Source: Paracoccus aminophilus JCM 7686 (GTDB lineage: Bacteria > Pseudomonadota > Alphaproteobacteria > Rhodobacterales > Rhodobacteraceae). From it: a stretch of DNA of 64,000 bases. The stretch spans positions 1,152,001-1,216,000 of the forward strand of contig NC_022041.1 in assembly GCF_000444995.1 (NCBI RefSeq), given 5' to 3'. This document shows positions 52,599 through 54,209 of the stretch, piece by piece. The notes beneath the pieces were generated by a model, which saw nothing but the letters and a program-made list of their open reading frames with translations, did not search any database and was not told where the DNA came from. How positions within the stretch are numbered: the stretch's first letter is position 1; each line of letters begins with the position of its first letter. The translations under genes were made by a program, and so were the position numbers.

Positions 52599-53285
52599 AT
52601 GCGTATTTTGCTGGTCGAAGATGACCCAACGACTGCCCGCAGCATCGAGCTGATCCTGGCGAATGCCAGTTACAACGTCTATCGCACCGACATGGGCGAA
52701 GAGGGTATCGATCTCGCAAAGCTCTATGATTACGATCTGATCCTGCTCGATCTCGATCTGCCGGACATGCACGGGATGGAGGTTTTGCGTCAGCTGCGCA
52801 TGTCCCGGGTCGACACGCCCATTCTCATTCTGACCGGCTCGGATGATACCGAAAGCAAGCTGCGCGGCTTTGGTTTCGGCGCTGACGACTATATGACGAA
52901 GCCCTTCCATCGCGAGGAAATGATCGCCCGCATTCAAGCAATCATTCGCCGCTCCAAGGGCCATAGCCAATCGGTGATCCGGACCGGCAATGTCGTGGTC
53001 AATCTCGACGCCCGCTCGGTCGAGGTCGGGGGCAAGCCCGTGAACCTCACCGGCAAAGAATATCAGATCCTCGAACTTCTGAGCCTGCGCAAGGGCACGA
53101 CGCTCACCAAAGAAATGTTCCTGAACCATCATTATCTCCTCCTAGTAGTTTGTATTTGTTTAGAATTAAATCTGCGGAACAAGTTACGGTACAATGTTCT
53201 CATTTTTGCCGCGGGCCTTCTGAGCTTCTTTCGCTCTCGCTTTTTGGGCCGCAGCCCCCGCGTAAAGCTTCACCATCTCGCTTGA
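52599..53285 (+). pseudogene. ctrA: Response regulator CtrA, 3' part replaced by prophage DNA
   Basis: Master regulator of cell cycle, motility and gene transfer agent in Alphaproteobacteria. Residues 1-177 are native: receiver domain with the phospho-acceptor Asp51 in LILLDLDLPD and Lys101 in YMTKPF, then an OmpR-type DNA-binding domain up to TKEMFLNH. From base 53131 the frame continues into prophage DNA for 51 unrelated, hydrophobic residues (HYLLLVVCICLE...) and ends at 53285 antisense to the integrase. The missing part of about 55 residues would include the recognition helix and wing, so the hybrid should not bind DNA. The 91 bp upstream are AT-rich and hold the promoter. Confidence 0.9.
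53121..53135. other. Left attachment site (attL) inside ctrA
   Basis: Similarity to ctrA ends after CTGAACCATC (53121-53130), and AT-richer phage DNA with no CtrA coding sense begins at 53131. The integrase gene starts on its far side, as at most phage att sites. The core length cannot be read without attR, which lies outside the window. Confidence 0.75.
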
Positions 53286-54209
53286 ACTGTGGCCAGTGAT
53301 CGCCTTGACGTGCTCTTCGGTCATCCCTGGCAACGCTGAGATTTCGGAGGCAGCGGAATGTCGCAGCGAGTGAATATCCCAAGCTTCCGCTTTCACGGAA
53401 TCCAGCTTGCGTGCTTCCATGATCCATTTCCAGGCAAGGCTGTAGCTGACGGGCGATCCGTTCTTTTGCGCGACAATGGTCGCGCCGATGCGTGGCGTTT
53501 GGGCAAGGATCGCGGCTAATGCTTCGGTGACCGGAATCCATAAGACTGTTCCTGTCTTCGTTTGCCGCAGTGCGATACCACCGTCTTCGAGATCGCCCCA
53601 TTGCATTCGAAGCACATCGCCGATTCGTTGACCGGTGCCGAGCAGAAGTTCAAAGACCAATCGTGTTTGCGCGTCCGCAGCATCTCTGAACGCGTTGATC
53701 TTGTCTGCAGGCCAAGGCTTGCGCGGCGGTCGCCTCCCTTTCAGCTGCATAACCCCAATTGCCACATTCCGATCGAGCCACCCTATTCGGATGGCGTGGC
53801 CCAAGAGGGTCACGAGCGCTCCCACCTTTCTGTTGGCATCGGTCGGCGTTTCTTTGAGGGCGTCCCGCATCTCATAGACATGAACGGTTCGGAGGGTAGC
53901 CGGATCTATCGTGCCCATCACCTCCTCGAAGTAACGGAAGTGTCGAAGATAGCTGATGCGAGTATTCTTCGCTAATTCCGGCCAGCGCTCGCTTTCCATG
54001 TACTTCTGAATAAGGCCTTTGATCGTCCGTTTGGGGGCGGGCGGTCTGCCTTTCAGCATCATTGCATATTCAGCTGCAAACTCTGCTGTTCCGGGCAGAG
54101 AATGCATACGTTGGCACTTACCGTAACGACAATAGTAGATGTGGAGATTGCGGCCCCTACGGTAGACGTACTTGGGAAGCTCTTTCTTGGTCAACGCCGC
54201 CTCGTCCAA
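53184..54209 (-). CDS. int: Tyrosine-family phage integrase
   Basis: A 341-residue site-specific recombinase. A core-binding domain covers about residues 60-165. The catalytic residues are Arg195 (GTGQRIGD), Lys219 (QTKTG), His280 and Arg283 (HSLRH), His307 (TGHSS) and Tyr316 (KLYAG). It lies beside the attL in ctrA, so it presumably recognises the ctrA sequence. The start is probably TTG 54209, overlapping the upstream 61-codon gene by 19 bp; no ATG precedes residue 35. Last gene of the leftward operon. Confidence 0.95.
   Translation of the reverse strand: MDEAALTKKELPKYVYRRGRNLHIYYCRYGKCQRMHSLPGTAEFAAEYAMMLKGRPPAPKRTIKGLIQKYMESERWPELAKNTRISYLRHFRYFEEVMGTIDPATLRTVHVYEMRDALKETPTDANRKVGALVTLLGHAIRIGWLDRNVAIGVMQLKGRRPPRKPWPADKINAFRDAADAQTRLVFELLLGTGQRIGDVLRMQWGDLEDGGIALRQTKTGTVLWIPVTEALAAILAQTPRIGATIVAQKNGSPVSYSLAWKWIMEARKLDSVKAEAWDIHSLRHSAASEISALPGMTEEHVKAITGHSSSEMVKLYAGAAAQKARAKEAQKARGKNENIVP

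Follow-up and report, generated by a model that had tools for sequence, protein, structure and literature searches.

In Listeria, a phage integrated in comK acts as a phage-regulatory switch, and in S. aureus the prophage phiSa3 splits the host gene hlb. In Paracoccus, the phage Pkon1 (vB_PkoS_Pkon1) of P. kondratievae, which is induced by mitomycin C, disrupts the gene of a putative OmpR regulator (PMC6536676), and its attB has been given as GTTTCTCAA(G/C)CAT (Decewicz et al. 2019, PMC6536676). The same report places a podovirus prophage of P. pantotrophus J46, vB_PpaP_PD15, whose recombinase is 92.7% similar, at a putative ompR regulator, and describes three other Paracoccus phages whose integration leaves the tRNA gene whole (PMC6536676). 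The GenBank record MK291442 bears the same note of OmpR disruption. The word ctrA does not occur in the main text of this report, and the available text does not present the site as a recurrent target beyond these two phages.

CtrA is a highly conserved alphaproteobacterial regulator (PMC9756655). A preliminary description of the locus studied here knew of no account of ctrA as an attachment site. That holds for the name: among the titles, abstract openings and text passages covered by our search of open-licence PMC papers, none names ctrA in this role, the nearest source being PMC6536676. It does not hold for the insertions themselves, as that text describes Pkon1 and PD15 in an OmpR-family gene, and the Pkon1 attB fits ctrA.

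Here we compare these systems with a prophage of Paracoccus aminophilus JCM 7686. We consider it highly probable that it belongs to a group of temperate tailed phages whose tyrosine integrase specifically targets some 12 bp of ctrA and which split the gene after residue 177 recurrently across genera. The site-specific disruption of ctrA is recurrent rather than a one-off; the preliminary observation was right, and the phenomenon is larger than it stated.

A prophage interrupts ctrA within its DNA-binding domain

The window, a stretch of 64,000 nucleotides of the P. aminophilus genome, contains the left junction of the prophage and its early genes:

52223..52507, + strand: intact DUF1153 gene (PF06627, E 5.8e-37), which we take to be sciP, the upstream partner of ctrA
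52599..53129, + strand: 5′ part of ctrA, codons 1-177, encoding the whole receiver domain and positions 1-33 of the 77-position winged-helix model
53119..53130, + strand: attL core TCCTGAACCATC, 12 bp inside ctrA codons 174-178
53130..53285, + strand: phage-encoded fusion tail, 51 codons in frame with truncated CtrA, then a stop
53184..54209, - strand: tyrosine integrase of the ctrA-targeting clade (PF00589, E 2.5e-20; phrog_1, E 1.4e-45; tree placement)
57994..58359, - strand: CI-like repressor (phrog_4, E 2.3e-06)
58432..58653, + strand: small HTH protein, divergent from the repressor (weak match to phrog_35, E 7.6e-04)
59506..60045, + strand: phage DNA methyltransferase (phrog_799, E 5e-35)
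60627..61256, + strand: replication-protein-like gene (phrog_22470, E 1.8e-11)
62758..63231, + strand: HNH endonuclease (phrog_2323, E 3.3e-30)
63387..63860, + strand: terminase small subunit, TerS (PF05119, E 2.4e-14; phrog_83)
63802..64000, + strand: start of the terminase large subunit, TerL, which runs past the window end (phrog_9, E 2.5e-129)
beyond the window, after TerL (both in L050:13802-16908): portal gene (phrog_12, E 2.3e-94)

The reading sense of CtrA ends after residue 177 (...TKEMFLNH), at position 53129 and at the attL core, which occurs once in the window. Translation continues through phage codons to a stop at 53285, giving an open reading frame of 228 aa; intact CtrA of same-genus relatives has 235-238 aa. 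By Pfam, the receiver domain of the truncated protein is complete and Trans_reg_C is matched over positions 1-33 of 77 only, below the model cut-off. The integrase gene converges on ctrA, and upstream mnmA is an open, matched frame. Open reading frames and Pfam thus bear out the preliminary description of a CtrA coding sense that stops after residue 177 beside an integrase and phage genes, with sciP intact and the DNA-recognition half removed by a prophage inside the gene. Its further remark, that the DNA becomes AT-richer at the junction, is correct about the dip (GC 0.55-0.56 at 52-54 kb vs 0.64-0.65 at 50-52 kb) but not about its onset, which lies ahead of the phage junction, within sciP and ctrA.

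An integrase beside the att site and a 12-bp core at both ends mark a site-specific temperate prophage, and its structural and regulatory genes include a repressor, TerS, TerL and portal. From its position, the small HTH protein is a candidate Cro-like regulator. At 56238-56768 the prophage has a gene with a match to phrog_632 (E 8.9e-29), whose PHROG annotation is tellurite resistance.

Nothing resembling a replacement ctrA 3′ end accompanies the phage: in the 12 attL rows and in P. mutanolyticus, similarity to CtrA ends at residues 178-179. Judging by this domain loss, CtrA function is presumably lost in the lysogen, which should therefore lack CtrA-dependent transcription.

The same codon of ctrA is cut in several genera

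We looked for both halves of ctrA in 13 insertion-bearing genomes or records. In 12 of them both are present, cut at the same codon and bordered by attL and attR cores that match. The preliminary description had raised the prospect of related integrases beside ctrA in other Rhodobacterales, and we find them in Paracoccus, Salipiger and Pseudooceanicola. The 12 cases include two P. denitrificans strains with like insertions and three S. bermudensis strains, so independent insertion events are fewer. In the thirteenth case, P. mutanolyticus (G154), the N-half stands beside an integrase remnant and no C-half was found in the genome; here the loss of ctrA is apparently permanent.

In 8 of the 12, the halves lie on one contig and strand in direct orientation, separated by 10.5-49.9 kb (P. 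denitrificans, 10.5 kb in two strains; P. cavernae, 40.0 kb; Paracoccus G074, 40.5 kb; P. versutus, 40.6 kb; S. bermudensis DP6N14-6, 39.7 kb, AmN7-7, 47.2 kb, and HTCC2601, 49.9 kb). They are on different contigs in three (P. methylarcula, S. thiooxidans and Pseudooceanicola marinus).

Several searches converge on this arrangement. A scan of genome contigs with three integrases returned 10 loci, eight of which carry ctrA from residue 1 to at least residue 177 beside the integrase; the two exceptions are L092, from Salipiger thiooxidans, and L096, with a 30-residue fragment. The same ctrA-integrase arrangement is present in two large plasmid records, one from P. versutus DSM 17099 and one from P. 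denitrificans HAMBI_2443. With full CtrA as query, an N-half and a separate C-half were recovered from 11/11 genomes or records, G074 being the twelfth, and no intact ctrA appeared among the matches listed for these 11; for the two strains just named, this search covered plasmid records rather than chromosomes.

Across the genus, 123 of 125 Paracoccus genomes have a ctrA match, and in six of these 123 it is split at residues 177-180: P. aminophilus (G000), P. denitrificans (G085), P. cavernae (G031), P. methylarcula (G018), G074 and G154. The best ctrA matches of the other genomes reach residue 223 or 224 among the matches listed. No second ctrA was detected at E 1e-60 in the five split genomes other than P. 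aminophilus. The five strongest integrase matches (E 6.3e-180 or better) belong to five of the six split genomes, and the sixth, G154, has the integrase remnant beside ctrA; the next match (E 5.9e-99) is beside tRNA-SeC, again in G154. Close relatives with intact ctrA include P. versutus UW1, P. pantotrophus DSM 11072 and P. ferrooxidans.

Two kinds of variation in ctrA were seen elsewhere in Paracoccus. In G128, ctrA breaks off at about residue 194, close to the end of a contig (L156, C3), and the remainder is at G128:C6:46857-46952 (L160); this is a different event, perhaps caused by an insertion sequence. Six genomes (G001, G070, G099, G115, G131 and G155) carry one or two more-divergent ctrA copies, 71-85% identical to the query.

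The crossover falls at the same codons in all 12 attL and 12 attR rows, whose common core is approximately TCCT(G/C)AANCA(T/C). Variants are seen in S. bermudensis AmN7-7, with T as the second base at both ends, and in G074, with TAT as the last codon at attL. The encoded peptide TKEMFLNH is invariant in the listed intact same-genus relatives except one, which has TKEMCLNH. The core is nearly palindromic (GTTC CT GAAC). In G074 (C1:2295288-2336455, L131), the integrase adjoins the C-half rather than the N-half, so that the prophage is reversed, and the near-palindrome may permit such an insertion. A stretch resembling the core also stands in the phage DNA of three IMG/VR contigs (L167, L170 and L196), some 60 to 105 bases past the integrase; its sequence in L167 is TTTCTTAACCATCTCTATGG.

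The integrases form a clade apart from tRNA-targeting relatives

In an unrooted tree of 93 integrases, a branch supported at 100/100 separates the 14 ctrA-adjacent rows from the 37 that adjoin a tRNA gene; the window integrase falls within the ctrA-adjacent clade. Targets were assigned mechanically, ctrA by tblastn and tRNA by ARAGORN near the integrase end, and 42 of the 93 rows received none, including 11 of the 25 rows in the ctrA clade. The 93 rows were hand-chosen and all kept; distant IMG/VR loci (L200-L225), fragments (L096 and L144), L086 and repeats (L128-L130 and L229-L231) were left out. The ctrA clade probably arose once from tRNA-targeting relatives.

An order-wide search with the integrase at 1e-70 gave matches in 73 of 390 genomes. 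Among 30 fetched loci, ctrA adjoins the integrase in four: two at known S. bermudensis coordinates, the one in the window, and G381, from another genus. Another 20 have a tRNA gene no more than 400 bases from the end of the integrase, tRNA-Cys in 17 of them, and neither target is present in six.

The clade is not strictly limited to ctrA, because at L092 (L092:6001-7851) a second clade integrase of S. thiooxidans sits at the 5′ end of an RlmJ gene (PF04378). The IMG/VR loci L163 and L164 group with it inside the clade, and together these three mark a further target change.

Among 32 mechanically called open reading frames of the window phage, the P. cavernae prophage matches six. Five further sequences, each of them partial or reduced, share with the window phage the integrase and no more than one additional frame. 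The integrase thus appears to travel between different phages.

Pkon1 can be placed in the same framework. Its 13-mer attB can be aligned in frame with the MFLNH codons of ctrA from 11 intact relatives, leaving 2-3 mismatches; the best alignments to 11 OmpR-family loci of P. aminophilus leave 3-5. Its target fits ctrA, for which the 13-mer is by itself weak evidence and membership of the integrase clade the stronger.

In P. aminophilus the two halves are far apart and inverted

The missing 3′ part of ctrA is present in the P. aminophilus genome, behind the same core:

C1:2290694-2290867, - strand: ctrA C-half, found by searching the genome
C1:2290867-2290878, - strand: attR core, the identical 12 bp TCCTGAACCATC, ahead of the C-half

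The preliminary description had expected it after attR at the right prophage end, and the core is as expected, but the distance is not: instead of one prophage length, 1.086 Mb separates the halves, which point in opposite directions, and no C-half was found within 75 kb downstream of the N-half. The genome (4.87 Mb in 6 contigs) has one CtrA N-half and no second ctrA, as had been supposed; the next-best match is an OmpR-family gene, 37% identical. With the halves so placed, recombination of attL with attR would invert the intervening segment instead of excising some 40 kb, and in this assembly ctrA would stay split after excision by itself. The proposal that the lysogen is CtrA-deficient until the phage excises is thus unsupported for P. 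aminophilus.

The phage DNA flanking the two halves comes from two related prophages in inverted orientation, with 14 blastn matches between them, including one of 919 bases at 98% and, as the longest, one of 5.5 kb at 94%. The second prophage, which now adjoins the C-half, extends from C1:2290868 to about 2334044. At its other end, near lysK, it has its own, different integrase (C1:2332851-2334044; phrog_1, E 3.6e-15), which had no Pfam match at 0.001 and was missed by tblastn with the window integrase. Three Hint-domain (PF13403) protein genes occupy a low-GC stretch beside attR (L077:9870-13838), and a further one lies at C1:1248221-1249492, about 43 kb right of attL.

The likeliest reading of this layout is an inversion, probably by recombination between the two homologous prophages. 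The order of lysK, recG, tsf, cheA and SDR is highly variable over the 10 genomes compared for synteny, and when the right end of the first prophage was searched for att sites belonging to the second, no convincing match emerged. A repeat-driven assembly error in the long-range layout is possible.

The most probable reading of these results is that the integrase recognizes a conserved stretch of about 12 bp, where ctrA encodes FLNH near the start of the winged-helix domain. Its insertion cuts CtrA after residue 177, leaving sciP and the upstream half at attL and the 3′ half at attR, and, as the phage brings no replacement 3′ end, the lysogen should be without DNA-binding CtrA. The integrase clade is carried by different phages, with ctrA as the target in at least three named genera. 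Since the relative Pkon1 can be induced, excision is in principle possible. In P. aminophilus, the halves would later have been separated by an inverted rearrangement of about 1.09 Mb, probably through recombination between two prophages.

Why ctrA is the target

One account of the choice of site, which we regard as evenly poised between right and wrong, is that ctrA is a conserved but dispensable place to land, the loss of CtrA being a tolerated side effect. The near-constancy of TKEMFLNH in intact relatives fits this, as does the use of strongly conserved tRNA genes by related integrases, and ctrA is also cut elsewhere, in G128. Yet phages ought to avoid a landing site whose use deprives the host of a regulator, unless that loss is neutral or useful, and this one recurs over several genera.

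Alternatively, breaking ctrA might pay the phage, by making the lysogen resistant to CtrA-dependent phages and stopping production of gene transfer agent; we consider this rather unlikely. A ctrA deletion makes Rhodobacter capsulatus resistant to phage Jorvik, which can infect again once the gene is complemented, according to the available text of that study (PMC10589892), and CtrA-binding sites have been reported in pilitropic and flagellotropic alphaproteobacterial phages, with CtrA regulating phage genes (PMC9437464, available text). There would also be something to silence: all six split Paracoccus genomes keep a GTA_TIM gene and four of the six have a strong flagellin match (G074 has none and G031 only one at 1.5e-6). 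These genomes are not distinctive, however, as GTA_TIM is found in 120 of 125 and flagellin in 119 of 125 overall, and GTA_TIM, being multi-copy in many genomes, need not mark a gene transfer agent. The stronger form of this idea seems unlikely: the clade would have evolved ctrA as attB because a lysogen refractory to CtrA-dependent competitors and free of gene transfer agent benefits the phage, the choice of attB amounting to superinfection exclusion. If it were true, the remnants in P. denitrificans and P. mutanolyticus and the inversion in P. aminophilus would represent hosts that stayed CtrA-free.

It is likewise rather doubtful that these insertions are an active lysogeny, in which reversible excision in response to conditions would turn CtrA, and with it motility and gene transfer, on and off as in Listeria comK. 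When joined, the interrupted halves do give an open CtrA frame of 235-239 aa in 12/12 cases, and the inducibility of Pkon1 fits as well. Seven Paracoccus N-halves from six species have pN/pS of 0 to 0.18 against the nearest intact genes, within or below the range between intact genes (0.043-0.212, 5-95% of 464 pairs); this comparison covered seven of the 12 rows, all of them Paracoccus. Open halves and such ratios imply either recent insertion or a gene still under selection, and the data fit both. Recent insertions would also leave open halves, and the N-half of P. versutus DSM 17099 shares 99.6% identity with the intact gene of P. ferrooxidans, the 0.4% difference over codons 1-177 causing no amino-acid change. 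An always-reversible switch is opposed by P. denitrificans, which keeps only a 10.5 kb element, and by G154, which lacks a C-half, both indicating that loss can become permanent; the inverted halves of P. aminophilus, 1.09 Mb apart, argue in the same direction.

An assembly artefact at the ctrA junction is very improbable: although two homologous prophages with distant, inverted ctrA halves could mislead an assembler in P. aminophilus, and the P. cavernae assembly, at 79% completeness, is of low quality, the same codon, core and integrase family recur in other assemblies, including two records titled complete, and the IMG/VR contig L165 carries the ctrA N-half and integrase together, leaving only the long-range P. 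aminophilus layout exposed.

Comparison with known systems

Recurrent phages of this kind would give rise to natural CtrA-null lineages, among them the P. denitrificans DSM 413 assembly, presumably that of the type strain. Split ctrA could thereby explain differences between strains in CtrA-dependent traits. It also makes testable the idea that an attachment site is chosen to remove what a competitor needs, and it puts the gene name ctrA on a site recorded as "OmpR family regulator".

Pkon1 has an integrase of the same clade as the window phage (65-66% identity) and the same order of att core and convergent integrase, but over the 21 kb of Pkon1 compared, the integrase alone matches. The tRNA-targeting tyrosine integrases of Rhodobacterales prophages are sequence relatives outside the ctrA clade; they sit at tRNA genes that are usually left whole, whereas the ctrA clade breaks a protein gene. 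As with the Listeria comK phage and S. aureus phiSa3 in hlb, a host gene is split that exact excision could restore. Unlike those switches, simple excision would not restore the gene in P. aminophilus, and regulated non-lytic excision is putative here.
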